Source of the DNA: Bacteroidota bacterium
GTDB lineage: Bacteria; Bacteroidota; Bacteroidia; Chitinophagales; Chitinophagaceae
Direction of reading: 5' to 3'
Length of the DNA stretch: 64,000 nt
Assembly: GCA_018267625.1 (NCBI GenBank)
Contig: JAFDYC010000056.1
Coordinates: 1-64,000, forward strand
Shown here: positions 24,666 through 50,549 of the stretch, one piece after another
Numbering within the stretch: position 1 is the first letter of the stretch
Layout: every line of letters starts with the position of its first letter
Translations under genes and position numbers: made by a program
The notes under the pieces: generated by a model
Seen by the model: only the letters and a program-made list of their open reading frames with translations
Told to the model about the DNA's origin: nothing
Databases searched by the model: none

Positions 24666-26744
24666 TTATTTAAACTCGCTATCAGGGATACCCTTATTGA
24701 TTTCAACAGAAGTCAGCTTCGAGTCTATGTTTTGAGGCCCGGCTTGTTGCTTCAATTCGTAAGGCACTTTGTATCCTCCGGTACCGGGCACTTCGCGGTA
24801 ATCTTTATACTCCGTGGAAATGCTGACAGCACCCTGAGGGCTTTCTTTCACCTGAACGCTCTTGATGAGCAGGCCCGTAGCCACACTATAATATTCCTTG
24901 CCTTTCTCACCGCTGGCATCTTCTGTATTCAGTACATAGGCATCCTCAGCATCCACTTTTTCCATTCCAGCGAGTGTATGCTTGATACCATATTTCTCTG
25001 GATGAAGTACATCTTGGAGGTCCGCTTCCTGAGCGGATTCGGCCAGCTCAGCGGCATCCATCTCCTTGCTCTGTCCCCGGGCTTCCTGGGTGCCTTTACC
25101 ATCGTGGTAAACCGACTTCTGGAAGGTTTGTCCCATGGCTGTCACGGTGCGCTTGAGGCTTTTCCCGTTTTTCCATTCACTCATAACAACAGTGACGCCG
25201 GGTTGTGGCTCAAAGCTGTATTCAATTTTCATGTCTTTTAAGCCATTGATGGCTGCCTCACCGCCCAAAGCCGCGATATATTTTTTAATCACTGCATCGG
25301 CTGTCAGGCCTGCAGGTGCTGCCTGCTTTTCATTGGCTGCAACCGGATGACCATAGTTATCGAAGAAAGAAACTTTACCGAAGTTTTCTAAGCTCTTGGC
25401 CACCTGGTCTGCATTACCTACCACAATGATGTTCGCTGCTTCCGGACGGATGTATTTCTGAGCCATTTCCTGAACGTCGGATACGCTTACGGCAGCCAGA
25501 TTTTGCAGGTAATTGGTATAGTAATCCTTGGGCAGATGATAGCGTTGAATGTTGATGGCAAACTGAGCAACGGTCTGGGGGTTCTCGAGGCTGATGGCAA
25601 ATTGGCCGGTCATGTTATTGATGATGTTCTGTACATCCGTTTCGGTCGCCGGTTCGGTACGGATACGCTTCATCTCAGCGAGGGTCTGTGCGATGGCACT
25701 GTCGGTAACGATGTTCCGGCATTTTGCATAGGCCGTGAAATTGCCCACCAATTCATCCTGATGAATGGAAGAATAGGAGCCGTAGGTCCAGCCATGTTTT
25801 TCGCGCAGGTTGAGGAATAAGCGCCCTTGCGAACCGCCACCCAGAACAGCATTTGCCACACGGGCTTTAATAACGTCCGGCGAGTTGGGCAGTAACTCCA
25901 AAGGATACGTCACGTTAAAGACGCTTTGAACTGCGGCATCACGATTGGCGAAGGAAACCTGAGTTGCAGTGATGGGCTTGGGTAAGCTGTAAGCAGCAAC
26001 GGGCACGTTTGCTTTTTTCCAGCCACTGAAATACTTCTGCATAAGCTGCTTCACCGTGGCCGGGGTCACATCGCCCACAAAGGCTAAATATGCCACATTC
26101 GGGCGCCAGTAAGTGTTGAAATAATCGTTGCAGCGCTTCAGGGTAATGGCTTCGATGGTCTTGTCTGTAGCCACTTCACCATATGCATGCCGGGCTCCAT
26201 AATTCACCGCTTGAGTAAGGTTTTCGAGCATGGCATCCGGGTCATTTTTTTGCGTAGCAAGACCGGAGAGGCTTTGCTTTTTGAGCTTGTCCAGTTCTGA
26301 TTGGCGGAAATCAGGATGCAGAATCATGTCGCTCATCAGCTCCACGAGTTTGTCTTCGTTGCGCACCAGGCAGGTACCAAACATGCTTTCTTCATCCGCT
26401 CTGATGGTAGCGCCGATATTGTCAATGGCCAGATCCATCTGGTCTTTAGAACGGGTTTTGGTACCCGAGGTAATCAGCTCACCTACGATATCGTGATAGC
26501 CGGCCATGTTGCCTTGCAATTCGGGGCGGATATCGAGCTGGAGGGAGACAGAAACCAGCGGCACTTTGTGGTTTTCTACCACGAAAACACGCAGGCCATT
26601 CGGCAGGGTAAATGTTTCCGTTTTGCCGAGTTCTATTTTGGGAGCTGGGCCGGGTTTGGGGCGAATGGAGCGGTCCAGCGTTTGTGCTTGTGCCGTTGTT
26701 GCCAGAATGGAACAACCGGCTATGGCTATGAGGTATTTTTTCAT
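24666..26744 (-). CDS. M16-family (insulinase-like) protein lacking the zinc site
   Basis: About 692 residues, exported (signal peptide ending TAQAQ near residue 21). Two M16 half-domains span about residues 40-480. At the position of the catalytic HxxEH the sequence is DIVGE (within AGYHDIVGELITSGT, about residues 82-94), so all three zinc/catalytic residues are missing. The rest of the fold is conserved (GGGSQGRLFLNLREKHGWTYGSYS). Residues of about 500-692 form a beta-rich extension (IAALGGEAAINGLKDMKIEY), which resembles LolA-like domains. It follows the active M16 gene by 78 bases and probably forms a non-catalytic partner in a periplasmic heterodimer. Confidence 0.85.
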   Translation of the reverse strand: MKKYLIAIAGCSILATTAQAQTLDRSIRPKPGPAPKIELGKTETFTLPNGLRVFVVENHKVPLVSVSLQLDIRPELQGNMAGYHDIVGELITSGTKTRSKDQMDLAIDNIGATIRADEESMFGTCLVRNEDKLVELMSDMILHPDFRQSELDKLKKQSLSGLATQKNDPDAMLENLTQAVNYGARHAYGEVATDKTIEAITLKRCNDYFNTYWRPNVAYLAFVGDVTPATVKQLMQKYFSGWKKANVPVAAYSLPKPITATQVSFANRDAAVQSVFNVTYPLELLPNSPDVIKARVANAVLGGGSQGRLFLNLREKHGWTYGSYSSIHQDELVGNFTAYAKCRNIVTDSAIAQTLAEMKRIRTEPATETDVQNIINNMTGQFAISLENPQTVAQFAINIQRYHLPKDYYTNYLQNLAAVSVSDVQEMAQKYIRPEAANIIVVGNADQVAKSLENFGKVSFFDNYGHPVAANEKQAAPAGLTADAVIKKYIAALGGEAAINGLKDMKIEYSFEPQPGVTVVMSEWKNGKSLKRTVTAMGQTFQKSVYHDGKGTQEARGQSKEMDAAELAESAQEADLQDVLHPEKYGIKHTLAGMEKVDAEDAYVLNTEDASGEKGKEYYSVATGLLIKSVQVKESPQGAVSISTEYKDYREVPGTGGYKVPYELKQQAGPQNIDSKLTSVEINKGIPDSEFK

Positions 26745-26822
26745 TTTCTGAAAAGGCATTGATTGAAGGAGAAGGAAGGCTTTGAATGGGAAGGCAAGCT
26801 GGAAGGCATTACCGAATGGGCA

Positions 26823-28148
26823 TTAGTCTTTCTTCTCGGATTTGGGCAGATAATAAACGACCAGACGATTTTCTTTCCTGAAAAATTTCCGGGCAACCCT
26901 CTGGATGTCTTCCTTGGTCACCGCCTGGTATTTCGCCAGCTCAGTGTTGACTAAGTTGGCATCCTTAAAGTAGGTGTAATCAGTAGCGAGGTTCGTGACA
27001 ACGCCCAACACCTTCCTGTTCTGTTCGGCAAACTGGGTTTCCGTCTGCACCATCAGTTTCTTCATTTCAGCATCCGTCACGCCATTTTTCTGCACTTTTT
27101 CTACTTCTGCGAGCATGGCTTTTTCGAGCGTGTCCGGCGACACACCGATATTGGCGATGCCGAACATAATCATGATGCTGGGGTCTTCATTCCCCGTAGC
27201 TCCGGCCCCCACCTGCACTGCCTTCTGTTCTTTGTCCACTACTTCTTTTTGCAGGCGCGAGCTTTTGCCTTGCGATAGCAGGTTGGTCAGCAGATCCAAT
27301 GCGTAATAATCCGGCGTGTTGGGTTTCGGCGTGTGGTAGGCAATCACTACAGCCGGCAGTTGGATATTGTCGTAGAAGGTTACTCGCTTTTCAGCCATGC
27401 TCTGCGGCTCCTGAGGCAAATCGCGGGGGATGGGACGGGTGCCTTTCGGAATGCCCCCGAAATACTTTGTAACCATCTTGATCACTTCCGGAGTATTGAT
27501 ATCCCCGCCAATAACCAGCACGGCATTATTGGGCACGTAGAAGGTCTTGTAGAAATCCATGAACTCGGGCAGAGTAGCCTGGTCAATGTATTGCTCCTTT
27601 CCGATGGGAGTCCAGCGGTAATTGCTCTTGGTAAAGGCATTTTCATACACCACATTCATGAGCTGGCCATAGGGTGTATTGTCGTAGCGCTGCTTCTTCT
27701 CTTCCTTCACCACCTTACGCTGCGTCTCTACACCGATACTATCAATTTTTGCGTGCAGCATACGTTCGCTTTCCATCCAGAGCGCCAGTTCGAGCTGGTT
27801 GGAAGGCAGCTCTTCATAATAAAAAGTGCGGTCTTGTGTTGTGTTAGCATTGAGCTGACCGCCCGCAGCCTGTACCAGCTTCATGTATTCTCCGCGCTTG
27901 ATGTTTTCAGATCCTTCAAAAAGCAGGTGTTCGAAGAAGTGGGCAAAACCTGTACGGTTCGGGTCTTCATTCTTGGAGCCTACATGATACATGACGCTTA
28001 CTGCAACGATAGGCGTTGAATGGTCTTCATGAAGAATAACATGGAGGCCGTTGGGTAAATCAAATTCAGAAAACTTGATTTGGGCACTTGCACCGCCCGC
28101 CATCAGGCTCATGGCGGCAAGTCCCGCAAGGAAAGCTTTACGCTTCAT
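26823..28148 (-). CDS. M16-family zinc peptidase (catalytic partner)
   Basis: A 441-residue exported M16 peptidase. The signal peptide ends GGASAQ at about residue 23. The inverted zinc motif is intact: GFAHFFEHLLFEGS with His70, Glu73 and His74. The downstream Glu region is YYEELPSNQLELALWMESERM. The C-half repeats the fold (LLTNLLSQGKSSRLQKEVV). M16 enzymes cleave short unstructured peptides in a closing chamber. The gene precedes its inactive homologue on the same strand, an arrangement like PqqF/PqqG or mitochondrial processing peptidase. ATG 28148 gives the signal peptide and follows a TACTTTTG element. An upstream frame to 28229 is rejected. Confidence 0.9.
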   Translation of the reverse strand: MKRKAFLAGLAAMSLMAGGASAQIKFSEFDLPNGLHVILHEDHSTPIVAVSVMYHVGSKNEDPNRTGFAHFFEHLLFEGSENIKRGEYMKLVQAAGGQLNANTTQDRTFYYEELPSNQLELALWMESERMLHAKIDSIGVETQRKVVKEEKKQRYDNTPYGQLMNVVYENAFTKSNYRWTPIGKEQYIDQATLPEFMDFYKTFYVPNNAVLVIGGDINTPEVIKMVTKYFGGIPKGTRPIPRDLPQEPQSMAEKRVTFYDNIQLPAVVIAYHTPKPNTPDYYALDLLTNLLSQGKSSRLQKEVVDKEQKAVQVGAGATGNEDPSIMIMFGIANIGVSPDTLEKAMLAEVEKVQKNGVTDAEMKKLMVQTETQFAEQNRKVLGVVTNLATDYTYFKDANLVNTELAKYQAVTKEDIQRVARKFFRKENRLVVYYLPKSEKKD

Positions 28149-28173
28149 AGAAAAATGGAGAAAAAATGTGGCG

Positions 28174-28181
28174 CAAAAGTA
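28174..28181 (-). promoter_or_regulatory. -7 element of the M16 operon
   Basis: Minus-strand TACTTTTG, a perfect TAnnTTTG, lies 25 nt before the ATG at 28148. Confidence 0.5.
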
Positions 28182-28509
28182 GGGCTGTGCCGGTAGTAGA
28201 ATGGTCTCATAATGTTGGGTAAATGACAAAAAAAATCAAGTGAGCGGGCCTTGCGGAGAATGTTCAGGCCCTTGAGGCAAACGGTTACATGGGGGCTATC
28301 CATTAGTAGGTCCCATCCCGGAAAAGCAGAAGACCACCCTTCAATTTTTTTGAAAAAAAACAAAAACGCGACGCTGAGTTTAGCTCTAAAACGAAACATT
28401 TTTCTTGAAGCGCTATCAAAAGGGATTGGATGGATGCCTTGCGGCAAATCCCGGGATTTCAGCCGGTGGAGCGAGCCCGACTTCAAAAAAGCTGCGCTGT
28501 ATTTCCCGC

Positions 28510-28517
28510 TATCTTTG
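28510..28517 (+). promoter_or_regulatory. -7 element of the envelope cluster
   Basis: TATCTTTG, a perfect TAnnTTTG, lies 60 nt before the ATG at 28578. It could drive the four-gene set 28578-36629. Confidence 0.5.
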
Positions 28518-28577
28518 GCCGCTTTTGGCAGAAAAAAATTGCTGCCTTTCCCCTCAAAGCGCTGTTTTGAATCCTTT

Positions 28578-30908
28578 ATGAAAAAGATTTTCTCCCTCCT
28601 GCTTGTTTTGTTATGTGCTTCTATCGGTTATGCCCAAACCGGAACAGTGAAGGGTTTTATTTATGAAAAAGGCAGCGGCGAGCCCGTGATTTATACAAAT
28701 GTTTGGCTGCTGGGCACCGGATACGGAGTGCAGACCGACGTGAACGGATACTTTTCTATTACCGGAATTCCGGCAGGCAGCTATACGCTTATTTCTACCC
28801 AAATCGGCTATGATTCCGCCACGAAAGAAGTTACGATTCGCCCAGGCGGGATTACGACACAGAAGCTCATCATGAGCCGTTCGGGAATTGCGTTGGACGA
28901 CATCACCGTGTCAGGAAGAAAACAAGAACGACGCACCCTGGTAAATGCCGGCGTCACGACCGTCACCCCCCGCGAAATGAAAATGCTGCCATCTGCCGGA
29001 GGTGAACCGGACATTGCCCAATACCTGCAAGTGACTCCCGGTGTCGTCTTCACCGGCGACCAGGGCGGGCAACTCTACATCCGTGGCGGTTCTCCTTCTC
29101 AGACGGGCATCCTCCTGGACGGCGTCACCATCTACAATCCCTTTCACAGCATCGGCCTGTTTTCTGTTTTCGAAACCGATGCTATTCGCAGCGTAGATAT
29201 CCAAAGTGCCGGCTTCAATGCACAATATGGCAACCGCACTTCTGCCATCTTAGACATCCATACGCGGGACGGCAATAAGAACCGTACAGAAGGCAAGCTT
29301 TCCGTGTCGCCTATCATGGCGCGTGCTATGCTGGAAGGCCCTATTATGAAGCCAAAAGATGAAGAAGGCAGCTCCATCACCTACTTACTCAGCGTCAAAC
29401 ACAGCTACCTCGACCAGACCTCAAAAGCCTTGTACGGCAGTTTTGGAGAACCTTTTTCTTCCGGGCTTCCATATGCCTTCACAGACCTGTATGGCAAGGT
29501 GACCTTTAGCGGCAACAGCGGATCCAAGCTGAATTTGTTCGGCTTCAACTTCGATGACCGCGCTAAGTTTCTAAACACACAGACGGATGCTACCATTGCC
29601 GATTTCAGATGGACGGCTACTGGCGGTGGTGCCACGTTTGTGGTTTCACCAGCCGGCTCATCCGCACTTATTGACGGCAAGTTTGCTTATTCCAAATACG
29701 GCATTGACTACAATGAAACAGGGCAGAATGTTCCCCGCAGCAGCGGTATCTCAGGCTTTGAAGGAGGCATCAACTTCACCAACTTCCTGCCCGGTTACAG
29801 CCAGTTCAAATATGGCCTTGAAGTAAGCGGCATCGCCACCAACCTGAGCTATACAAACAATTTCGGCTACGGCACCAGCCTCGACCGCCAGAATACCATC
29901 GCCTCCCTGTTTGCCATTTTCAGAAAGAACTTCAGTGAGAAGTTTATCGTGGAGCCCGGCCTGCGAATTCAGTACTACGCTACCCTGGATAAGTTTTCGC
30001 CCGAGCCCCGCATCGGTATGAAATACAACATCACGCCCAACTTGCGCCTGAAAGCGGCTGCAGGCTTGTATTCTCAGAATATTATTTCAACCAAAAACGA
30101 CCGCGACATCGTCAACTTCTTTACCGGATTCCTGCTCAGCCCAGACAAGACGATATATAAAAACCCGGCTACTTCTTCCGACCCGGTGCAGTCGAACCTG
30201 CTGACCGCTTATCATATTTTGGGTGGGGTGGAATTCGATATTCAACATTTTGAATTCAACCTGGAACCCTGGTTCAAAGACTTCACTCAAAACTTTGAGC
30301 TGAACCGCTATAAAGGCCAAGTATATGCCAATGGCAGCATTGACAACAACGACTTCGTATTTGAAACAGGAAAGGCTTATGGCATTGATTTTTCAACAAA
30401 ATATTCAAACCGTCGCCTTTACGTTTGGGCCGTGATGGGCTACCAATATGTGGACCGCACCGATTTCATGCAAACCTATCCGCCCCCCTTCGACCGCCGG
30501 TTTAACGCCAACTTCCTGGCAGCGTACACAGCCGGCAAGCATAAGGATATCGAGCTTTCGCTGCGATATAATCTCGGCTCTCCTTTCCCCTTCACTCAGA
30601 CTCAGGGCTTTTATGAAAACCTCAACCTGACATCAAACGGAATCGGCACCAACTACCTGCAACAAAACGGGCAACTTGGGCTGCTCTACGCCAGCCAGGT
30701 AAATGGGGGCCGGCTTTCTTATTACCACCGGGTGGATATTTCAGCCAAGAAACGTTTTGAGCTTTCCAAACAATCCAATCTGGAAGCGACGTTCAGCATC
30801 ACGAACCTGTTCAACCGGAACAATATTTTCTACGTCAACCGTTTTGATAACACCCGCGTGTATCAGTTACCCATTTTCCCCAGCCTCAGCCTTTCCTGGA
30901 ATTTTTAA
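28578..30908 (+). CDS. TonB-dependent receptor with carboxypeptidase-like N-domain
   Basis: A 776-residue outer-membrane receptor. Signal peptide residues 1-19 (MKKIFSLLLVLLCASIGYAQ). Residues of about 20-105 are a carboxypeptidase-regulatory-like beta-sandwich (YEKGSGEPVIYTNVWLLGT, VNGYFSITGIPAGSYTL). The plug covers about residues 120-225 (LQVTPGVVFTGDQGGQLYIRGG, ILLDGVTIYNP, AQYGNRTSAILDI). The barrel then runs to the terminal LSWNF. The architecture is the general Bacteroidota TonB type, shorter than SusC, and no SusD-like partner follows. It heads a co-directional cluster (30-, 3- and 45-base gaps) with the TPR, barrel and SPOR genes. The upstream open frame from 28251 is rejected because the signal peptide starts at 28578. 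Confidence 0.9.
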   Translation: MKKIFSLLLVLLCASIGYAQTGTVKGFIYEKGSGEPVIYTNVWLLGTGYGVQTDVNGYFSITGIPAGSYTLISTQIGYDSATKEVTIRPGGITTQKLIMSRSGIALDDITVSGRKQERRTLVNAGVTTVTPREMKMLPSAGGEPDIAQYLQVTPGVVFTGDQGGQLYIRGGSPSQTGILLDGVTIYNPFHSIGLFSVFETDAIRSVDIQSAGFNAQYGNRTSAILDIHTRDGNKNRTEGKLSVSPIMARAMLEGPIMKPKDEEGSSITYLLSVKHSYLDQTSKALYGSFGEPFSSGLPYAFTDLYGKVTFSGNSGSKLNLFGFNFDDRAKFLNTQTDATIADFRWTATGGGATFVVSPAGSSALIDGKFAYSKYGIDYNETGQNVPRSSGISGFEGGINFTNFLPGYSQFKYGLEVSGIATNLSYTNNFGYGTSLDRQNTIASLFAIFRKNFSEKFIVEPGLRIQYYATLDKFSPEPRIGMKYNITPNLRLKAAAGLYSQNIISTKNDRDIVNFFTGFLLSPDKTIYKNPATSSDPVQSNLLTAYHILGGVEFDIQHFEFNLEPWFKDFTQNFELNRYKGQVYANGSIDNNDFVFETGKAYGIDFSTKYSNRRLYVWAVMGYQYVDRTDFMQTYPPPFDRRFNANFLAAYTAGKHKDIELSLRYNLGSPFPFTQTQGFYENLNLTSNGIGTNYLQQNGQLGLLYASQVNGGRLSYYHRVDISAKKRFELSKQSNLEATFSITNLFNRNNIFYVNRFDNTRVYQLPIFPSLSLSWNF

Positions 30909-30938
30909 AGCAAGCAGCAAACCGCGCTTATTCTGCTC

Positions 30939-33900
30939 ATGCTCCTAAAGCGATTCATCACCCTTTGCAGCCTCGCCCTTGCCCTGCCCCTGGCAGCACC
31001 TGCACAAGAACTTTCCCGTTTTAGCCCGCAACAAGACGCAAGCTTCCGAACGAACGACCAGTTTGATGCGGCGCTCTGGTCACTCGCCCGCCAGTCGGCA
31101 CAATCCGCCTTGAATGGCCCACTGTACCTGGACGCGGCCTGGCTGGATACCCGCCGAAATACAGAGTACGAAAAGGCGGTCAGTGGCCTGAAAACAACTT
31201 CGTACGGAGCGCTTGATTCGGCTGTAGCCCTCCTGCAGCAGCTCAACCCACAAGTCCTGCGAGACCGGCTGTCACTGGCTATTGCACGCTACTATTTCTT
31301 GCAGGGCAAGCTCGCCGCCGCCATACCCTATTATCAAACGTCTGGCATTGCCAACCTGAGCAATACCGAAATCGCAGATGCAAAATTTGAACTGGCTTAT
31401 TGTTATTTCAACAACCATCAGTTTGGGCCGGCAGACACGCTGCTGAGCATCATGAAAGAAGTGCCGGGGAAATATTACAGCCCGGGTAATTACTACTATG
31501 GATTGCTGGCCTACACAAAAGGTGAATATGCTGCCGCGCTGAAAAGCTTTGCCCGGATTCGAGATGAAAAAATCTACCGGCCCGTAGTTCCCTACTACAT
31601 GGCCGAGATATACTATTTCAAAGGTGAACGAGATACGGCTTTGGCCGAAGCGCTGAGCCTGTTGCAGCCGGGTGTTCCTTCTTATTATGAAAACGAACTG
31701 CATCTGCTGGCGGCTCAATGCCTGTTTGAAGCCGGACGCTTTGGTGATGCCTTACCCTATTTCGAGTATTACTACAACCATTCGGAAAAGCTGCGCAAAG
31801 AGGATTTGTATGAAATGGGCTACGCCTATTACCGGGTGGACGAATGGACCAATGCAATCGCCAAATTCAAGCCACTGAGCATCGCAAAAGATTCGTTAGG
31901 GCAGGCAGCCATGTACCTGCTCGGCGACTGCTACCTAAAGACGAATGATAAGACAGGAGCCAGAAATGCCTTTGGCCTCTGCGCCGAAATGCCCTACAAC
32001 CCCGGGCAACGGGAAGCCGCGCTTTTGCTGCACGCGAAACTCTGCTACGAAACCGGTTTCCCCGATGAAGCCATGCGGAGCCTGCGCAGCCTGATGCAGG
32101 ATTATCCCGGCTCCGATTATTTGCCTGCTGCTCGCTTGCTTCAGTCGCAGCTCTATCTGGAAACAAACAATTACAAGGATGCCTATCAGGCATTGGCCCG
32201 CTTCCCTACAAATGATGCCGGATATGGAAGCATCTTTCAACGCGCAGCATACGGCTATGGATTGCAAAAGCTTCAGTCCGGGCAATTAGACGAAGCAGAC
32301 AAATTGCTCTCCGAATCACTTTCACAACAATCCGCACCTGCCTATACTGCTGCTACTCATTTTTGGAAAGCGGAAATTGCATACCGTCAAAGCCGATACG
32401 ATTCAGCCGTCTATTTCGACCAAACATTCCTCCGGGCAGCTTCCAGCCCCTTAGCACAACAAGTGAGCAGCACAGCCACACGCGCTCATGCAGCTTCTAC
32501 CCTCGGTTACGCACTGATGCAGCTCAAAAATTATCGGGAAGCTCAAAAGGCCTTCGCTACTGCGAAACAAGAAGGCAATAACACCACTGCTACCAATGCT
32601 TCTTTGCGCGAAGCGGACGCCTATTTCATGCAAAAAGATTTTGCACATGCGGCCCCTATTTATACATCGCTGGCTTCGGGCACAGGCACCGATGCAGAGT
32701 ATGCCCGCCTGCAATCTGCCATCATCGCGGGTTTACGCGGCGACAATACTGAAAAGCTGAAGCTGCTGAGCAATATCATGAGTGTTACTCCGCCGTCTGC
32801 TTATGCAGCCGAAGCCCGCTACGAAATGGGCCTGACTCAGATTACAACCGGCCGTTATGATGAAGCGGTTGCTACACTTAGCCTGTTAACCACAGACAAG
32901 AAGGAACCAGAATTTGCCCCAAAAGCCCTCCTGAAAATCGGCAGCTTACAACAGCAATTGAATAAAGATGAGCAAGCGCTAGAAAGTTTTAGAAAACTGA
33001 TTCGCGACTTCCCATCTGCTCCGGAACGCAGCGATGCCCTGGCCGCCTGCAAGCGCATTTTTGTTGAACGGAATCAGCCGGATGCTTACATCACGTTGTT
33101 GAAAGAATTCAATCTGCCACTTGCCTCAGACCAGGAGATGGACACGGCATTTTATAATGCAGCAGAGCTACAATATGCCTCTATGAATTGGGCCCCGGCA
33201 GCCGCTGCATTTCGAAGGTATCTCCAGCAGTTTCCGGCAGGCATGAAAGCGCTTAAGGCACGCTATTATCTGGCCAACAGCTTGTACAATTCGAAGTCTT
33301 ATGCTGTCGCCCGGCAAGCCTACGACACCTTGCTGCAAGCGGGATGGAATGCGTTCTCTGAAGAAAGTGCCCGCCGGGCTGCAGAACTTGCCCTGGCAGA
33401 CACCGCCTGGAGTGATGCGAACCGGTATTATGGTTTGCTTGCCGAACATGCAGAAACCGATGAATCCCGTAGCAACGCATTTGCCGGGCTGATGCGTACC
33501 GCTTCTCGTATGCACGATGAAGCTGCGGCTGTTCGTAATTCCGACTCGCTCTTAACCTGTGCCCAGGTAGCCCCGGGCCTGCGCGATGAAGCCACATTAA
33601 TTATCCTCCGGCAGCGCTTACTGCAGGGTGATAGTAGCCGGGCCGACACACTGTTGCCATCGCTGGTCAAGAGTGACAATGCAGCCGTAGCAGCAGAAGC
33701 AGGATACCGATGGGCACAAGCGCTTTTTGCCGCATGCAAGCTTAAAGAATCAGAAAAGGAAGCCAGTGCTAACATTAAGCGTAGCTCGGGCTATGAATGG
33801 TGGCTTGTAAAAACGTACCTGTTGCTGGGCGACATCTCTATCGCTAAAAAAGATTACTTCAATGCCCGTGCTACCTTCCAGAGTGTGGTACGCAACACGA

Positions 33901-33983
33901 AGCTTCCCGAACTCAGAGCGTATGCCGAACAACGGCTTCAGGAACTGAAGAACCTTGATCATTCTAAACTTTCTAACGAGTAG
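30939..33983 (+). CDS. Large periplasmic TPR-repeat protein
   Basis: A 1014-residue exported protein. The signal peptide ends LAAPAQ at about residue 23, with no lipobox. Almost all of the rest is tetratricopeptide-like helical repeats, for example DAKFELAYCYFNNHQFGPADTLL, PVVPYYMAEIYYFKGERDTAL, EDLYEMGYAYYRVDEWTNAIAKF, AEARYEMGLTQITTGRYDEAV and APKALLKIGSLQQQLNKDEQALESF. At least fifteen repeats can be seen by eye. Such proteins act as periplasmic scaffolds. It is placed 30 bases after the TonB receptor and 3 bases before the barrel gene, so the three are almost certainly one transcript and perhaps one complex. Confidence 0.85.
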   Translation: MLLKRFITLCSLALALPLAAPAQELSRFSPQQDASFRTNDQFDAALWSLARQSAQSALNGPLYLDAAWLDTRRNTEYEKAVSGLKTTSYGALDSAVALLQQLNPQVLRDRLSLAIARYYFLQGKLAAAIPYYQTSGIANLSNTEIADAKFELAYCYFNNHQFGPADTLLSIMKEVPGKYYSPGNYYYGLLAYTKGEYAAALKSFARIRDEKIYRPVVPYYMAEIYYFKGERDTALAEALSLLQPGVPSYYENELHLLAAQCLFEAGRFGDALPYFEYYYNHSEKLRKEDLYEMGYAYYRVDEWTNAIAKFKPLSIAKDSLGQAAMYLLGDCYLKTNDKTGARNAFGLCAEMPYNPGQREAALLLHAKLCYETGFPDEAMRSLRSLMQDYPGSDYLPAARLLQSQLYLETNNYKDAYQALARFPTNDAGYGSIFQRAAYGYGLQKLQSGQLDEADKLLSESLSQQSAPAYTAATHFWKAEIAYRQSRYDSAVYFDQTFLRAASSPLAQQVSSTATRAHAASTLGYALMQLKNYREAQKAFATAKQEGNNTTATNASLREADAYFMQKDFAHAAPIYTSLASGTGTDAEYARLQSAIIAGLRGDNTEKLKLLSNIMSVTPPSAYAAEARYEMGLTQITTGRYDEAVATLSLLTTDKKEPEFAPKALLKIGSLQQQLNKDEQALESFRKLIRDFPSAPERSDALAACKRIFVERNQPDAYITLLKEFNLPLASDQEMDTAFYNAAELQYASMNWAPAAAAFRRYLQQFPAGMKALKARYYLANSLYNSKSYAVARQAYDTLLQAGWNAFSEESARRAAELALADTAWSDANRYYGLLAEHAETDESRSNAFAGLMRTASRMHDEAAAVRNSDSLLTCAQVAPGLRDEATLIILRQRLLQGDSSRADTLLPSLVKSDNAAVAAEAGYRWAQALFAACKLKESEKEASANIKRSSGYEWWLVKTYLLLGDISIAKKDYFNARATFQSVVRNTKLPELRAYAEQRLQELKNLDHSKLSNE

Positions 33984-33986
33984 CGC

Positions 33987-35690
33987 ATGACGAAGCGTAT
34001 CACCGGAGTCATTCTATTACTCATGCTGGCCTTCCTTTCGACGCCGGCACAGGCGCAACGGCGCAAAGCCAAAACTCCGCCCACACCCAAGCCGGCAAGC
34101 CCGATGCCGCCTGCGGCCCGAAACGACACCAGCATCAAAAGCACTACGCTGGAAGTGTATCAGGTGTATCAGCCGGAGATGAAGGCCTTGCAAAAACCCG
34201 GCTATGCACCCAGTCTTCCACCCAACGAAAAAGAGCCGCAGCCGCAACACTATGAAGTGCCGCAGCAAACACTCCTCTATTCTTATCGAGCCTTGCCGCT
34301 TCGCCCCCTGGCTCTGGGTAAAGACACCGCTCCGCTTCCTCCACAGAACTATATTTTACTCGGAGGTGGAAACCTTTCAACAGCCCTTGCCGAAGCGGGC
34401 ATTGGAGGGTTGCAGGTGGCGCAATGGAAAGGGAATATCTATGGCCGGTACCTCAGCCAGGAAGGCAGCACAGCCAATCAGATTTATCGAAACTTCCTAC
34501 TGAAAAGTGACGCAAGCTGGAACGATGACCATTACAAGCTGGATGCTGGCCTGGACCTGAGCCGGAATGTGTTTGGGCGTTATGGATATGACCATTCGCT
34601 GCAACAATTCAATCTGGACGATGTACGGATGAAATATGATGCTGCCCGGCTTCATTTCGGCTTGCACAATACGAGCCCCGGCATCTGGAATTTAGACTAT
34701 GCGCCCACACTGAACCTGCTTGCCTGGGACGGCAGACAGGGACACGAAACGGATCTTCAATTTTTCGCACCAATCAGCCGGAGAATAGATTCATCTTTCA
34801 GTCTGGGCCTGGCCTTGAATGTGCAAGGTTCCTGGAATAGCCTGGCGTCTTCGCTGGATCGAAACCAGAGCAGTAATCTGTTTCAGGTCCTGCCCTTCGC
34901 GGACTATCGTTCAGGAAATTTGGATGCACACCTCTCGTTGGCACCCACCTGGAGCGAAGGAGCCGATCTGCTGTGGCTGCCGGATATACGTATTGGCTTT
35001 CAATTCCTGAATAAGCGCATTAGGATTGAAGCAACGGGCAAGGCGGAGCGTATGCAGAACACCTTGCAGCAACTCAGTGAAGAGAATCCTTATTTCTTCC
35101 CGGGCAATTTTTCCATTCGTCAGAGCACGCGTGCCGAAGTTGCTGGAGCTGTTCAGGCCGCGCTGGGCAATCATTTGAGTGTATGGGGCCGAATTGCCTG
35201 GCAGCATCTTGAGGATGCTCCCTTGTTTATCACCAGTGCCGGCAGTGATGGAAAAGATTTCAGCATCATCTACGAACACGAGATACGCGCCCTATGCTGG
35301 GGTGGCGGCCTGCGCTATCAGGTGGGTGAATATTTTTCATTAGGAGCCGAAGGGCAATGGCTGAATTATTACCAACTGAGCATGCTGCAACATGCATATG
35401 GCATGCCTGGAATTCGCTTAAAGGGAGATCTTTCCTGGCGCCTGACGAAGGGATTGTTGCTGACAAGCTATATGCAGGTGCTGGACGAAATCTGGGGGCT
35501 GGATGCCTATGGCCATAACGTCCGGCAACGGGGTGTTTTCGATTTCGGAGCATCTGCAGAATACCATTTCTTTTCTAAGTTGTCAGCCTTTATACATGCC
35601 GATAATTTACTGGGTCGCCGCAATGAACGCTGGTTAGGCTACCCTTCTTTTGGCTTTAATCTTTACGGAGGATTGCGGTATCGTTTTTAG
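33987..35690 (+). CDS. Outer-membrane beta-barrel protein without a plug
   Basis: A 567-residue outer-membrane protein. The signal peptide ends TPAQAQ at about residue 24. A basic, Pro-rich linker follows (RRKAKTPPTPKPASPMPP). From about residue 115 the sequence alternates in the manner of an antiparallel barrel (many aromatic-ended strands) and ends in the typical GGLRYRF. It resembles the barrel half of TonB receptors, but I see no plug domain. The stop codon of the TPR gene is 3 bases upstream. Bacteroidota often carry a TPR / barrel / HU-SPOR trio, which suggests that the trio works together at the envelope. The exact role is unknown. Confidence 0.78.
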   Translation: MTKRITGVILLLMLAFLSTPAQAQRRKAKTPPTPKPASPMPPAARNDTSIKSTTLEVYQVYQPEMKALQKPGYAPSLPPNEKEPQPQHYEVPQQTLLYSYRALPLRPLALGKDTAPLPPQNYILLGGGNLSTALAEAGIGGLQVAQWKGNIYGRYLSQEGSTANQIYRNFLLKSDASWNDDHYKLDAGLDLSRNVFGRYGYDHSLQQFNLDDVRMKYDAARLHFGLHNTSPGIWNLDYAPTLNLLAWDGRQGHETDLQFFAPISRRIDSSFSLGLALNVQGSWNSLASSLDRNQSSNLFQVLPFADYRSGNLDAHLSLAPTWSEGADLLWLPDIRIGFQFLNKRIRIEATGKAERMQNTLQQLSEENPYFFPGNFSIRQSTRAEVAGAVQAALGNHLSVWGRIAWQHLEDAPLFITSAGSDGKDFSIIYEHEIRALCWGGGLRYQVGEYFSLGAEGQWLNYYQLSMLQHAYGMPGIRLKGDLSWRLTKGLLLTSYMQVLDEIWGLDAYGHNVRQRGVFDFGASAEYHFFSKLSAFIHADNLLGRRNERWLGYPSFGFNLYGGLRYRF

Positions 35691-35704
35691 CACCCGAGCT
35701 ACCC

Positions 35705-35712
35705 TTAATTTG
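35705..35712 (+). promoter_or_regulatory. Possible internal -7 element before the HU-SPOR gene
   Basis: TTAATTTG resembles TAnnTTTG and lies 23 nt before the ATG at 35736. The gene may therefore be transcribed both alone and with the cluster. Confidence 0.35.
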
Positions 35713-35735
35713 CACGCTTCAATTTTGCCACCCGC

Positions 35736-36629
35736 ATGGACATTGCCAAGTATATCGGACTCTATCTGCTCAAAAACAACTTCTGCTATATCCACGGTTT
35801 GGGCAACCTGGAGATTCGCCGCAAGGCAGCGGAATATGACGGCGAATCCCTGCGTGCCCCGGAATATGAAGTGACCCTAAGTCCCGGCGGTAGCATTGAT
35901 GATGCACTTGCCAATTTTATTGCCACACACGAACAGACCTCCATTTCTAAAGCAGCCAATGCACTTCGCGATTTCAGCATTGCCTCAAGAGCAGAGTTAG
36001 CTGCTGGGAAGGAAGTAGAGATTCCCGGTGTTGGAAAGTTTATTGAGCAAAATGGGCTCACCCGGTTTGTGGGCAGCCCGCAGTTGCAGCATACACCTCC
36101 TCCGGTTCCCATTATCCGGATGGCAAAACGGACCGAGGAACAACCCGTCTTTCATCACGATACTACCCAGGAAAAACCTGCTTCTGAAATTGCCTGGGGC
36201 AAAATCGTGATGCTGGCCCTTGCGCTGCTCATTATCCTTGCCGGAGGCATCTTCGCTTATCGGTATTTCAGTAGCAGGCCGGCTACACCTGTAGTGATGC
36301 AGGATACAGCAATTGTCCAGCCGGCTCCAGAACCTCCAGTGGCTACTCTACCTGTTGATACCAGCCATGTCATTGACAGCACCACTACTAAACCGGCTGC
36401 CCCTTCCGGCGATTTTCAGGTGGTTTTGAATAGCTATTCTTCCCGCCCTGCGGCTGAAAAACGCAAAGATGCCTTGAAACGTAACGGTAACAACGTGGAA
36501 CTGGTCAGTAAGGACTCTTCAAATTTCTTTGTCGTGCTTAATATGCCGCGCAGTACCGCAGATACTACCCGGATGCTCGATTCTCTGCGCCGCTTCTTCA
36601 ACCCGAAAGGCGTATATATCCTGCATTAA
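35736..36629 (+). CDS. HU-CCDC81 and SPOR domain membrane protein
   Basis: A 297-residue bitopic protein. Residues 1-60 and about 65-125 are two HU-CCDC81 domains (YIGLYLLKNNFCYIHGLGNLEI; FIATHEQTSISKAANALRDFS...EIPGVGKFIEQNGLTRF). A single membrane helix lies at about 154-176 (GKIVMLALALLIILAGGIFAY). A Pro/Thr-rich periplasmic spacer follows, and residues of about 222-297 are a SPOR domain (FQVVLNSYSSRPAAEKRKDAL ... PKGVYILH). SPOR domains bind glycan strands stripped of peptides, typically at division sites. HU-CCDC81 modules are related to DNA-binding HU folds, so a cytoplasmic DNA or partner contact coupled to the cell wall is a reasonable inference. Confidence 0.92.
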   Translation: MDIAKYIGLYLLKNNFCYIHGLGNLEIRRKAAEYDGESLRAPEYEVTLSPGGSIDDALANFIATHEQTSISKAANALRDFSIASRAELAAGKEVEIPGVGKFIEQNGLTRFVGSPQLQHTPPPVPIIRMAKRTEEQPVFHHDTTQEKPASEIAWGKIVMLALALLIILAGGIFAYRYFSSRPATPVVMQDTAIVQPAPEPPVATLPVDTSHVIDSTTTKPAAPSGDFQVVLNSYSSRPAAEKRKDALKRNGNNVELVSKDSSNFFVVLNMPRSTADTTRMLDSLRRFFNPKGVYILH

Positions 36630-36653
36630 TAGCTATTGGAAATCCGGGAAGGC

Positions 36654-38513
36654 TTAAAGCACTTTCGTGCCCCGCATTGCCTCGCTCAGTGCTGAGTCCA
36701 TCAGTCGTTCTGCGAAAGGACGGCAAATGTCATTGAGCGCTTCTGTGGCTGCCTGAATTTGGTTTTTCTCTTTCGCTGAAAGGGCTACACGCAAAGTATT
36801 CATCTGGCTGAGGGTGCGGTTCATTTCTTCTTCTGAAAGCAGGTTTCTGTTTTTCTGAAGGAAGTTTTCAGTGGTCAGAAGCATTTGTTCTGCTTCGGTT
36901 GAAGCTTCAACGAGGGCACGGGCCTGCATATCCTTTCGGGCATTCAGGAGCGAATCCATCAGCATCTGTTCCACTTCTTCATCCGTAAGACCGTATTGTG
37001 GCTTCACAGAGATGCTTTGGGCCACACCGCTGCGAAGTTCTTTAGCACTCACTTTCAGGATCCCATCCGCATCAATCAAAAAAGTGATTTCTACTTTAGG
37101 CAAACCGGCGGGCATGGAAGGGATTCCTTTGAGGTTGAAAGAAGCCAGCTTGCGGTTGTCGGCAACGAGGTCTCGTTCGCCCTGATAAACGGTAATGGCC
37201 ATAGCGCTCTGCCCGTCTTTCTGCGTGGTGTACTGACGACCTGCTTTCGAAGGAATTTTCGAATTACGAGGGACAAGCACATCCATCAAACCGCCCATCG
37301 TTTCGATGCCGAGGGAGAGGGGCGTCACATCCAGCAGCAGCATGTCGGTGTTTTTTCCGGCAAGAATATCCGCCTGCACGGCAGCTCCCAAAGCCACTAC
37401 TTCATCCGGGTTGAAAGAGTCAAATAATTCGCGAACAAAAAACTCCCGTACGGATTGTTTTACCAAAGGCACCCGTGTTGAACCACCCACCATCACCACC
37501 GCATCAATGTCTTTTGTGCTGAGTCGGGCATCGGAAAGTGCCTGGCGGCAGCTATCGAGCGTGCGCTCCACGAGTGGCCGGATGGCTGATTCAAATTCAT
37601 GGCGATGTACATGAATCTTTTCTCCTCGTATTGAACCTTCAAAAAATTCAGAATGGCTCAAAGCCTTTTTAGCCTCTTCTCCCAGAAGGCGCAATTCCTG
37701 AATCAGTGTAGCATCATCTTCGGTGTTGAACTGGGGGACTTGTTGTTTGAAAAGTCCGACCAGGGCACGGTCAAAATCATCACCGCCTAAGTAGGTATCA
37801 CCATGGGTGGAAAGGACTTCAAAAATGCCACCCGAGAGCCGGAGGATGGAGATATCAAACGTGCCCCCACCCAAATCATAAACGGCAATGCTTCGTTCTT
37901 CATCCGGGCGTACACCAAGGCCATAAGCCAATGCAGCCGCAGTAGGTTCATTCACGATACGCAGCACATCAAGGCCGGCCAATTTGCCGGCATCGCGGGT
38001 AGCCTGGCGTTGGGTGTCGTTGAAGTATGCGGGCACCGTAATGACCGCCTTGGAAACCGGCACTTTCAACACGTGTTCGGCACGTGCCTTGAGTTGATGT
38101 AGGATCTGCGCCGAAAGCTCAATGGGGGAATAAAACTGATTCCCGACGGCCACTTTCACCAGAGAATCAGTATGGTCGTCGATCACTTTGTAGGCAAAGG
38201 AAGCGGCATGGTCTTCCACATCATGGTAGCTTTTCCCCATCAGGCGCTTTACGGAATAGATCGTTCGCTCAGGAGCATCCAGCAGGTGCTGGCGGGCATC
38301 CTGACCCACATGCACGTCGCCAAATGGCCCAAAGTGGATGATGGAAGGGACCAGGGTCAGACCATCTGTTTCACGGAGGGCAATGGGTTTACGCTGGCCT
38401 TCATCTTCACGAACGATCGCAATCAACGAATTGGTCGTACCGAGGTCAATACCCACGATTAGTTCTTCTTCCTGTATAGAGCCGGTTGCGAGATTGATGG
38501 AAACTTTGGCCAT
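36654..38513 (-). CDS. hscA: Fe-S cluster assembly chaperone HscA (Hsp70 family)
   Basis: A 619-residue Hsp70 that helps move Fe-S clusters from the IscU scaffold. The N-terminus MAKVSINLATGSIQEEE is HscA-specific rather than DnaK-like. The nucleotide-binding domain shows VGIDLGTTNSL, VITVPAYFNDTQRQATRDAGKLAGL, IVNEPTAAALAYG and AVYDLGGGTFDIS. The substrate domain starts near LLLDVTPLSLGIETMGG. The C-terminal lid is short and lacks the acidic DnaK tail. HscB, IscU and ferredoxin are not next to it, though an Mrp-type Fe-S ATPase lies about 1 kb away. It converges with the SPOR gene, 24 bases apart. Confidence 0.92.
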   Translation of the reverse strand: MAKVSINLATGSIQEEELIVGIDLGTTNSLIAIVREDEGQRKPIALRETDGLTLVPSIIHFGPFGDVHVGQDARQHLLDAPERTIYSVKRLMGKSYHDVEDHAASFAYKVIDDHTDSLVKVAVGNQFYSPIELSAQILHQLKARAEHVLKVPVSKAVITVPAYFNDTQRQATRDAGKLAGLDVLRIVNEPTAAALAYGLGVRPDEERSIAVYDLGGGTFDISILRLSGGIFEVLSTHGDTYLGGDDFDRALVGLFKQQVPQFNTEDDATLIQELRLLGEEAKKALSHSEFFEGSIRGEKIHVHRHEFESAIRPLVERTLDSCRQALSDARLSTKDIDAVVMVGGSTRVPLVKQSVREFFVRELFDSFNPDEVVALGAAVQADILAGKNTDMLLLDVTPLSLGIETMGGLMDVLVPRNSKIPSKAGRQYTTQKDGQSAMAITVYQGERDLVADNRKLASFNLKGIPSMPAGLPKVEITFLIDADGILKVSAKELRSGVAQSISVKPQYGLTDEEVEQMLMDSLLNARKDMQARALVEASTEAEQMLLTTENFLQKNRNLLSEEEMNRTLSQMNTLRVALSAKEKNQIQAATEALNDICRPFAERLMDSALSEAMRGTKVL

Positions 38514-48359: not shown

Positions 48360-50549
48360 TCAGGGGTTGTCCGTGTCTTTATGAACGCGACTACCTGGGT
48401 TCCCAAATTCTGATTCCGGATCACCTGGATCGTTGTCATCACCTTGATCCTGAATTTGAAGGTTTGATTCCTGAGAACCAATGGTACCCTTTTTCGCACT
48501 GTTGTATATGATACGGCGTGTAGGGTCTTCTTGTAAGATTCGGAATTCTGTACGACGATTAAGTTGACGTCCGCCCGGATTATCCTTATTTCCAAAGAAA
48601 TTGGGAGCGGCAGGCATCTTTTCACCAAAGCCTTTGGCAATCAATCGGCGGTCATCAATCCCTTGACTGGTCAGGTAGCTGCGAACTGCTTGAGCACGAC
48701 GGAGCGAAAGGTCTTTGTTGTAATCATCGGTGCCGTTTGCATCTGTAAAAGAGTAAACTTCTACGGATAAGGAGGGGTTGTCCTTCATGAAGCTAACCAA
48801 AGAGTCAAGAGAAGCTATAGATTCCGGGCGCAAGTCTGCTTTATCGTAGTCATAATACACGTTCGTGACTCGGAAGCTTTTGTTCATCGTAATGCTATCC
48901 AAATAAACTACTACGTTGACTGTTTGATCTGGGTCGCTACGCTTAATACCTTCTGTGCTGACTTGAGCGCGAGTCGAAACGAACTTGGATTTGTCTCCAG
49001 TGAAAACATAGGTATGCTCACGAGCCATGTTGAATTGGAACTGACCATCTTCAGAATTGAAGGTGCGCAGATTGCCTGTTTCATCAACCATACGAACGAC
49101 TACATCGTTCATTTCTTTTTGGGTTTTGCTATTGAGAACCTTTCCCATGACCTGAAGTTTAGGCTCAACTTGGATGCGCCAGATATCATCGCAGCAGGTA
49201 GGGTTTTTCAAAGCAATCGAACCAATACGGTTGGAAACTACATAAGCATCGGGTTTCCCAACAGGATCCTTAATATAGTAGAGTTCATCGGCAGAGGTAT
49301 TGATAGGATAGCCCATGTTTTTCACGTTCGTGTAACGGGAAGGCCCTCCATCTGCAGAGTAAATATCAAAACCGCCCATGCTCACTAAGCCATCGGAAGC
49401 AAAATAGAGTTTGTGAACCCTGGAATCATAATAAGGGGTCATTTCATTTCCCTCAGTATTAATTTGTTTACCGGCATTTTGAGGACGGCGATAGGTACCG
49501 CGAGCTGGGTCAATAACGGAATACCAGATGTCATATTTACCACGGCTTTGGATTTTCCTGTTAGAAGAGAAGAAAAGGATTTCTTTTTTCCCAACCTTGG
49601 CAACAAAGGGGTGTGTATTGGAGCTTCCATCATTGATGCCCTCTCCCAATAATTCAGGCGATTGCCATACACCCTTTTTGATATCAAACTGAGAGACGTA
49701 AATACGGCATATTACAGACATGGTATCGGATTCCTTACAATGAGTAAAATAGAATCGGTCGCCACCAGGGCTATAGCATCCGTTACCCGTATGAGACTTC
49801 AAGTCATTGAAGGGGCCATCGTTAAATACCAAGGGCCATTGAAAAGAATCCACATCAGCCACATTATATTGCTTATGAGAGGTCATAAACCGGGCATAAT
49901 ACTGATGTTTCCCATCGATTGTGCTATTTTGATTCATGGTGGAAAACAGCAAAGCTGTATCTCCCAATGGATAAGGGGAACTTTCTGTAAAAGGGCTGTT
50001 TACATTAGGTCCTGCATTTTTCATAGTGACCGAAACAGGGTCATTGATGGAATTCTTCCCCATGATACAACCATCAATCTCTCGCTTAGCTGTCTTTTTC
50101 AGCTTTTTGTACGTCTTGGGGTTGTCCGCCATGAACTTTTCAAAAGCATGGATGGAAGAGTCGTATAACCCTTGCATCTTGAGCATTTTTGCTTCCTTGA
50201 ATTTAGCTTCCGGATAAATTTTGGAAGCTAAAGCATAGGCTTCGCCATAGTTTTTAGCAGCGGGACCATAATCCCTGCTAAAGGCATAACATTCGGCCAA
50301 TTGGTATGAGAGATACGGGTTACGTGGGTTCTCTGCTTTTAATTGGCTGTAGTATTCTATCGCAGTAAAATAGCTACCGGCTTCGAACAAGCCATCCGCC
50401 CAGCGGATTTTTCGGTTGTAGGGGAGCTTTGCAACAGGGTCGTTTGCCGGATTGCGATACTTTTCCCTTTGCTGCTGTGCCTGCGCATCATTTTGACCAG
50501 AAAACACTAAGATAGACGCGAGTAAAAGTAGCAGCCAGTTTTTTCTCAT
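48360..50549 (-). CDS. PorE-like protein (TPR, PD40 propeller, OmpA domain)
   Basis: A 729-residue periplasmic protein. Signal peptide to about residue 25 (NDAQAQ). Residues of about 45-150 are TPR-like helices (WADGLFEAGSYFTAIEYYSQLKAENPRNPYLSYQLAECYAF). Residues of about 170-480 are WD40-like PD40 beta-propeller repeats (ESSPYPLGDTALLFSTMNQ, GNGCYSPGGDRFYFTHCK, KKEILFFSSNRK). A carboxypeptidase-regulatory-like domain follows (VMGKVLNSKTQKEMNDVVVRM). Residues of about 575-700 are an OmpA peptidoglycan-binding domain (VYYDYDKADLRPESIASLD ... NRRTEFRI). This order matches PorE, which anchors the T9SS PorLM/PorKN machinery to the wall. It follows the PorP/SprF gene by 117 bases. Confidence 0.88.
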   Translation of the reverse strand: MRKNWLLLLLASILVFSGQNDAQAQQQREKYRNPANDPVAKLPYNRKIRWADGLFEAGSYFTAIEYYSQLKAENPRNPYLSYQLAECYAFSRDYGPAAKNYGEAYALASKIYPEAKFKEAKMLKMQGLYDSSIHAFEKFMADNPKTYKKLKKTAKREIDGCIMGKNSINDPVSVTMKNAGPNVNSPFTESSPYPLGDTALLFSTMNQNSTIDGKHQYYARFMTSHKQYNVADVDSFQWPLVFNDGPFNDLKSHTGNGCYSPGGDRFYFTHCKESDTMSVICRIYVSQFDIKKGVWQSPELLGEGINDGSSNTHPFVAKVGKKEILFFSSNRKIQSRGKYDIWYSVIDPARGTYRRPQNAGKQINTEGNEMTPYYDSRVHKLYFASDGLVSMGGFDIYSADGGPSRYTNVKNMGYPINTSADELYYIKDPVGKPDAYVVSNRIGSIALKNPTCCDDIWRIQVEPKLQVMGKVLNSKTQKEMNDVVVRMVDETGNLRTFNSEDGQFQFNMAREHTYVFTGDKSKFVSTRAQVSTEGIKRSDPDQTVNVVVYLDSITMNKSFRVTNVYYDYDKADLRPESIASLDSLVSFMKDNPSLSVEVYSFTDANGTDDYNKDLSLRRAQAVRSYLTSQGIDDRRLIAKGFGEKMPAAPNFFGNKDNPGGRQLNRRTEFRILQEDPTRRIIYNSAKKGTIGSQESNLQIQDQGDDNDPGDPESEFGNPGSRVHKDTDNP

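Follow-up and report, generated by a model that had tools for sequence, protein, structure and literature searches.

A conserved TPR, plug-less barrel and HU/SPOR gene set of Bacteroidota, linked in distant families to TolQ-TolR genes and tentatively read as part of a motor-driven envelope machine

The question raised by this locus is whether a group of adjacent envelope genes is a working unit, and what such a unit would do. The locus lies in the window, by which we mean the whole stretch analysed, positions 1-64,000 of contig JAFDYC010000056.1 (GCA_018267625.1, Bacteroidota bacterium; all coordinates are relative to the window). A sequence-only reading had described it as one four-gene cluster with components in every layer of the envelope. 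The coordinates of the open reading frames (ORFs) confirmed the four genes, all on the + strand and separated by gaps of 30, 3 and 45 bases, and parts for the outer membrane, periplasm, wall and inner membrane are present among them. The genes are as follows (TPR, tetratricopeptide repeat; TM, transmembrane helix):

28578..30908 (+): TonB-dependent receptor, gene 1; ATG start, 776 aa, with CarboxypepD_reg_2 and plug domains
30939..33983 (+): periplasmic TPR protein, gene 2; 1014 aa, core of the conserved unit
33987..35690 (+): plug-less outer-membrane barrel of 22 predicted strands, gene 3; 567 aa, predicted TonB-receptor fold, core of the conserved unit
35736..36629 (+): HU-HU-TM-SPOR protein (HU/SPOR protein), gene 4; 297 aa

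We observed that, as judged from gene order, TPR-barrel-HU/SPOR is a real and widely conserved unit. A profile of the barrel matched 189 of 296 Bacteroidota genomes, and 40 flanks were hand-picked from these to span families, mostly with better scores. In 36 of the 40, over many families, the TPR gene immediately preceded the barrel; at locus L087 one inserted gene separated the two, and no TPR gene was seen upstream at L085, L103 (contig end) and L108. Downstream of the barrel, 33 flanks had a protein within our limits, some of these being unrelated genes, and among the 33 we found HU-CCDC81_bac_2 in 14, SPOR in 14 and HU-CCDC81_bac_1 in 13. TolQ and TolR genes were present downstream in 14 of the 40. 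The proposed conservation of gene order across Bacteroidota thus held for TPR-barrel-HU/SPOR, whose order extends far outside close relatives; for the receptor it did not hold.

We also made an unpicked count, in which a TolQ profile was run over the 296 genomes and the places of its matches were compared with those of the barrel. Among the matches listed, to which all counts of this linkage refer, 127 genomes had a barrel place and 99 of them also a TolQ place; in 57 of the 99, a TolQ-type gene lay 699-3130 nt (median 1822) downstream of the barrel on the same strand. The linkage was seen in families f3 (7/7), f8 (7/7), f9 (2/2), f16 (4/6), f21 (2/2), f23 (28/29), f30 (2/2), f34 (4/4) and f45 (1/1), and was absent from f4, f7 and f38 (0/1 each). 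Many of the listed barrel matches outside the window's class are weak alone (about 1e-8 to 1e-17) and were credited by position only. The spread of the linkage over distant families suggests that the window's lineage broke up an old order of six genes; the TolQ linkage itself is outside the interval 28578-36629.

The operons that we annotated read TPR-barrel-HU/SPOR-TolQ-TolR-TolA/TonB. At L081, Pfam assigned HU-CCDC81_bac_1/2 with a sub-threshold SPOR match, then MotA/TolQ/ExbB and ExbD/TolR; the protein in the TolA/TonB place, which a Mur-ligase-type (folC-like) gene follows at L081, had no Pfam match, here and at L204. The L105 operon gave HU plus SPOR (5.7e-14), MotA_ExbB and TonB_C. A TM, a linker and a TonB_C-like end were found in the TolA-like proteins of L105 (1.5e-6) and of the window's own genome (1.3e-7), a layout that fits TolA and TonB alike. 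This own copy adjoins a folC-like gene on contig 86 (C86), the arrangement of the linked operons, while contig 37 (C37) carries a TolQ-TolR pair and contig 35 (C35) the Ton system ExbB-ExbD-ExbD-TonB. To the operon TolQ of two f3 genomes, the C37 TolQ has 43-45% identity, against 29-30% for the C35 ExbB, so this genome possesses the motor parts in unlinked form. The genomes read from f5 and f7 keep TolQ-TolR-TolA together, with a folC-size gene behind them (Pfam-confirmed in L204), apart from TPR-barrel. At L206 (near a contig end) and L210 (family f2), TolQ was followed by two TolR-type genes, with no TolA match.

The explanation that we prefer, with a probability of about 0.48, is that the TPR, barrel and HU-TM-SPOR proteins belong to an envelope machine that is spread across Bacteroidota and powered by a TolQ-TolR-TolA/TonB-type proton motor, in which they supply the parts for the outer membrane, for the periplasm and for finding the septum.

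Within the window's family, the HU/SPOR protein had matches in 66 of 98 genomes, and 40 flanks were taken from these 66. The block was present in 15 of the 40 neighbourhoods, the HU/SPOR gene being located elsewhere in the other 25. The 15 relatives with the block had the TPR gene in 15, HU/SPOR in 15 (two of these were dropped by the ORF filter and found in a genome search), the barrel in 13 and the receptor in 13; one automated count gave the barrel in 15/15, inflated because other barrels in L032 and L058 were matched by chance, and 13 holds. As an internal synteny control, we looked for the M16, Hsp70 or Mrp genes that flank the cluster in the window and found them beside the block in 0 of the 15. 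Because these are absent while the parts of the block are kept, the association of the block goes beyond chance. A second sample consisted of 80 named TPR loci (Chitinophaga, Terrimonas, Flavisolibacter, Sediminibacterium, Cnuella and many metagenome-assembled genomes). Here the barrel adjoined in 73, the seven misses being five contig ends and two long overlaps, and HU came next in 66, with seven misses for HU made up of four contig ends, one overlap and two, L116 and L163, that look real.

The receptor (CarboxypepD_reg_2 7e-17, Plug 2.7e-12) behaved differently from the block. It was 52-66% identical across the 13 relatives that have it, and stood upstream of TPR in 19 of the 80 named loci and in none of the 40 phylum-wide barrel flanks. 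Beyond the linked group, the 14 genomes tested yielded a single close relative of it (46% identity, 703 bits), located elsewhere in an f2 genome, and the best match in ten other genomes of the window's family was 158 bits. By these comparisons the receptor, which had been counted as a member of the cluster, falls outside the conserved unit and is a local addition to the operon, restricted to the window's part of the family. The four genes as a single conserved unit were rejected, as the receptor joined only near the window's lineage.

That operon members can be swapped or lost, with receptor, HU, SPOR and barrel each missing somewhere, agrees with an alternative in which these are only co-transcribed housekeeping genes that do not cooperate physically. 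However, TPR and barrel remain paired in f2, f4 and f5, where everything else has left, and we consider this alternative quite improbable.

Pfam assigned no family to the barrel protein (best E 0.21), and no plug domain was matched. In its AlphaFold model (47 sequences, single chain, mean predicted local distance difference test (pLDDT) 81.7), residues 121-566 form 22 main strands at high confidence, while residues 19-115 are disordered, so that about 95 low-confidence residues stand where a plug would sit. The nearest solved folds were BtuB (E 7.8e-18) and BtuB/FhuA, with Z about 22 over 414-451 residues. The model is therefore consistent with a barrel of the TonB-receptor type that has a disordered tail instead of the plug of TonB-dependent receptors. 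This tail occupies the following position:

34059..34331 (+): barrel N-terminal tail, residues about 25-115, conserved but predicted disordered; TonB-box-like strand at residues about 53-63

In an alignment of the window's barrel with 40 others, the tail was about as conserved as the barrel itself (mean column entropy 2.6-2.7 for residues 41-80, against 1.7-3.1 for other 20-residue blocks), and Q24, right behind the signal peptide, was kept in 41/41 sequences. A short strand pattern recurs in the tail, TIEVIxxYxP in the family and ELPEFVITG in deep branches. We take this N-terminal strand to resemble a TonB box, which would be a second likeness to TonB-dependent receptors.

The TPR protein has a signal peptide, no lipobox was seen, and its Pfam match was TPR_16 (4.8e-23). 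It passed the NCBIfam model tol_pal_ybgF (123.9 bits against a cut-off of 90.1, summed over four repeat stretches), and its closest solved structures, designed TPRs aside, were YbgF and CpoB. We also weighed whether it assists the type IX secretion/gliding machinery as an accessory protein like PorW/SprE, for which there is a sub-threshold match to NCBIfam T9SS_PorW_SprE. This match reached 56.8 bits against a cut-off of 250 and was confined to three TPR stretches, so that PorW/SprE identity was rejected; the linkage found was instead to TolQR and SPOR. A role in that machinery appears very improbable.

The HU kinship of gene 4 comes from its relatives and its fold, since the window's copy scored below the Pfam cut-offs (HU-CCDC81_bac_2, 8.6e-6, 26.0 of 35 bits; HU-CCDC81_bac_1, 14.0 of 26 bits); its SPOR match was also below cut-off (E 0.11, 13.3 of 21 bits). 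In the AlphaFold2 model (33 sequences, single chain, mean pLDDT 83), HU1-HU2 (residues 1-113) are followed by a linker, a membrane helix (154-179), a periplasmic linker and a SPOR-like domain (226-297). Foldseek matched the model to HU and SPOR structures at E of only 0.01-0.1 (HU match 2o97, TMt 0.81), and VIA-align placed the SPOR part nearest to the RlpA SPOR (Z 7.3 over 70 residues) and gave the HU part a Z of about 7 to HU over 69 residues. Against solved structures, a profile of 22 relatives matched IHF/HU (1e-9), DedD (4e-7) and FtsN (0.03). Individual relatives exceeded the Pfam cut-offs, for HU in L081, L202 and L207 and for SPOR in L105 (as given above) and L202 (8.3e-6).

An HU-CCDC81 domain on a SPOR protein had been called unusual. 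We found instead that it is the usual form in the phylum, as seen from the 66 family genomes above and from the two Pfam HU families named for it, and the idea of a rare fusion was rejected. Gene 4 shares the tandem HU, membrane helix and SPOR of the HU-CCDC81_bac / SPOR proteins (PF18174, PF18175, PF05036), and the window's copy differs from them by its sub-cut-off scores; a PF18174 search of the window's genome at E 0.001 gave 0 matches, although the domain is present. Many family members are HU-TM only: 36 of the 66 family proteins were short (<280 aa), and the five examples read were HU-HU-TM, almost without a periplasmic part. Genome G029 has a short copy after the barrel (L072) and a full HU-TM-SPOR copy elsewhere (L036). 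A search of 23 genomes gave matches in 23/23, the best match in G004, G108, G135, G158, G226 and G253 being a short HU, SPOR or partial piece. In family f8 (L094-L097), HU has been lost from the third gene, leaving TM-SPOR only, with the operon intact, which indicates that HU and SPOR are separable modules. At L103, L104, L105 and L108, outside the window's class, the third gene is 529-696 aa long; it has roughly one HU domain, and a long stretch that is mostly acidic precedes its membrane helix.

Could the HU domains hold DNA while SPOR holds the septal wall, so that gene 4 links the chromosome to the division wall? Chromosome partition was reportedly predicted for such HU/SPOR proteins by Burroughs et al. 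in 2017, and the HU fold, the IHF/HU profile match and the topology within one protein fit such a link. The HU half of gene 4, however, has a net charge of -3 over 118 residues, and the charge was zero or below in almost every row of two alignments (A1, 26 of 28; A7, 32 of 33), against +11 and +4 for two HU/IHF-type proteins of the window's genome, the +11 protein having an RNPQTG arm. At the HU-arm position, the model has a two-residue hairpin in HU2 and a twelve-residue link in HU1. We thus did not find, in the HU part of gene 4, the basic surface and beta-arm of DNA-binding HU/IHF. The best fold matches covering both HU domains were the doublet-microtubule proteins 8snb chain 1K (Z 8.7) and 8v3l chain A (Z 8.1), with a further tandem-HU match to the Mycoplasma gliding-motor protein 9io5 (Z 7.9), all these values being modest. 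Moreover, f8 has lost HU yet keeps SPOR and the operon. These points weaken the DNA link offered by the sequence-only reading, and we regard a connection between chromosome and wall as improbable. For the modelled HU part we favour protein docking over DNA holding; the tandem HU may be of one kind with the module through which eukaryotic CCDC81-type proteins act on microtubules.

In the motor-driven machine that we prefer, TolQR would use the proton gradient to move a TolA-like rod across the periplasm, and the rod would grip either the barrel's flexible N-terminal tail, through its TonB-box-like strand, or the TPR arm bound to the barrel. The SPOR domain would bring the assembly to denuded septal peptidoglycan, and the tandem HU domains would engage a partner in the cytoplasm, for which a protein is likelier than DNA. 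The outcome would be a force-driven link of outer membrane, wall and inner membrane in constriction, like Tol-Pal/CpoB of Proteobacteria. In the window's lineage, the operon would have been split, with TolQR and TolA moved elsewhere and a TonB receptor added.

Several observations weigh against this explanation. Neither TolB nor Pal was found in the operon: at L081, the ORFs of at least 110 aa from TPR to folC were those of the barrel, HU/SPOR, TolQ, TolR and the TolA-like protein. Among the matches listed, the TolQ linkage was absent from the window's own family f1 (0/10) and from f2 (0/5), f5 (0/17), f10 (0/2) and f11 (0/2). L032 and L058 read receptor-TPR-HU/SPOR, without a barrel between; their TPR is much more divergent, at 20-21% identity to that of the window. 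Neither end of gene 4 is indispensable, since HU is missing in f8 and SPOR in many members of the window's family. The YbgF score is weak evidence, because TPR repeats match many TPR families. Finally, an operon with a proton channel also fits transport.

The last point leads to the main rival, a transport system in which a single bulky substrate would be exported or imported through the barrel, with the TPR arm as the gate and the TolQR/TonB-type motor as the source of power. A 22-strand TonB-receptor fold without a plug, a TPR partner and a motor in the same operon would all suit it, and TPR-barrel pairs work in the export of alginate, poly-N-acetylglucosamine (PNAG) and cellulose. On the other hand, no synthase, lipoprotein or substrate gene travels along in the flanks read (from ORF sizes and a few Pfam scans), the usual third gene is a SPOR protein, and the wide presence in the phylum suggests housekeeping. 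We consider a transport role unlikely, though it deserves more weight than the other alternatives.

Compared with Tol-Pal/CpoB (TolQ-TolR-TolA-TolB-Pal-CpoB), the gene set shares a TolQ/TolR-type motor, a TolA/TonB-like gene and a TPR protein in one operon, and its layout too would span the envelope. It differs in having the plug-less barrel and the HU-TM-SPOR protein where TolB/Pal would be, and we left it outside the Tol-Pal class because its operon has neither TolB nor Pal. It would nevertheless work like Tol-Pal, combining a motor run by protons with a rod in the periplasm, a TPR partner and an anchor in the outer membrane, and with SPOR as the septal address. In a more specific and more tentative form of this proposal, Bacteroidota would own a proton-driven septal machine in which TolQRA acts with a plug-less barrel on a 1000-residue TPR arm in the stead of TolB-Pal, steered by SPOR and with the tandem HU as a protein-docking module.

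A 2025 paper states that Bacteroidetes have no identifiable tol-pal loci, and proposes PorE as the outer membrane-wall tether that fills this gap (PMC12204202). A PorE-like protein is encoded in the window at 48360-50549 (-), with an N-terminal TPR, a long middle and a C-terminal OmpA domain (1.5e-20); no lipobox cysteine is evident in its signal peptide, which sets it apart from PorE, described as an outer-membrane lipoprotein (PMC12204202). It is a separate gene, 12 kb from the gene set and outside the operon. PorE and the TPR-barrel-HU/SPOR-TolQRA set could serve the same task. In the literature searched, which covered subscription journals thinly, we found no account naming this gene set.

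We also evaluated the promoters of the cluster. An internal promoter had been placed at 35705, ahead of gene 4. A sigma-70 scan of 28000-36900 gave 7 sites against 7.2 expected, which is chance level, with none on the + strand near 35705, and TANNTTTG, which we take to be the Bacteroidota -7 promoter motif, had zero matches around 35705. The internal promoter was thus unsupported and was rejected. Across the window the motif was under-represented (22 found against 36 expected), and one weak match lay 60 nt ahead of the receptor start:

28510..28517 (+): TATCTTTG, possible Bacteroidota-type promoter element (weak), presumed from the same motif

The reading frame of the receptor extends open back to a TTG at 28251. 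Two adjacent M16-type peptidases at 24666-28229 (-) are divergent from the cluster, and are beside the block in 0/15 relatives.

The interest of this locus lies in the linkage of TolQR(A) and SPOR to a giant TPR protein and to a TonB-type barrel that has no plug, HU on SPOR being ordinary in the phylum. A barrel without a plug and with a conserved tail would be a new kind of target for a force transducer. For the tethering and drawing in of the outer membrane at division in Bacteroidota, the gene set supplies syntenic candidates in TPR, barrel, HU/SPOR and TolQRA, and it may be the means by which these bacteria connect and constrict the outer membrane.

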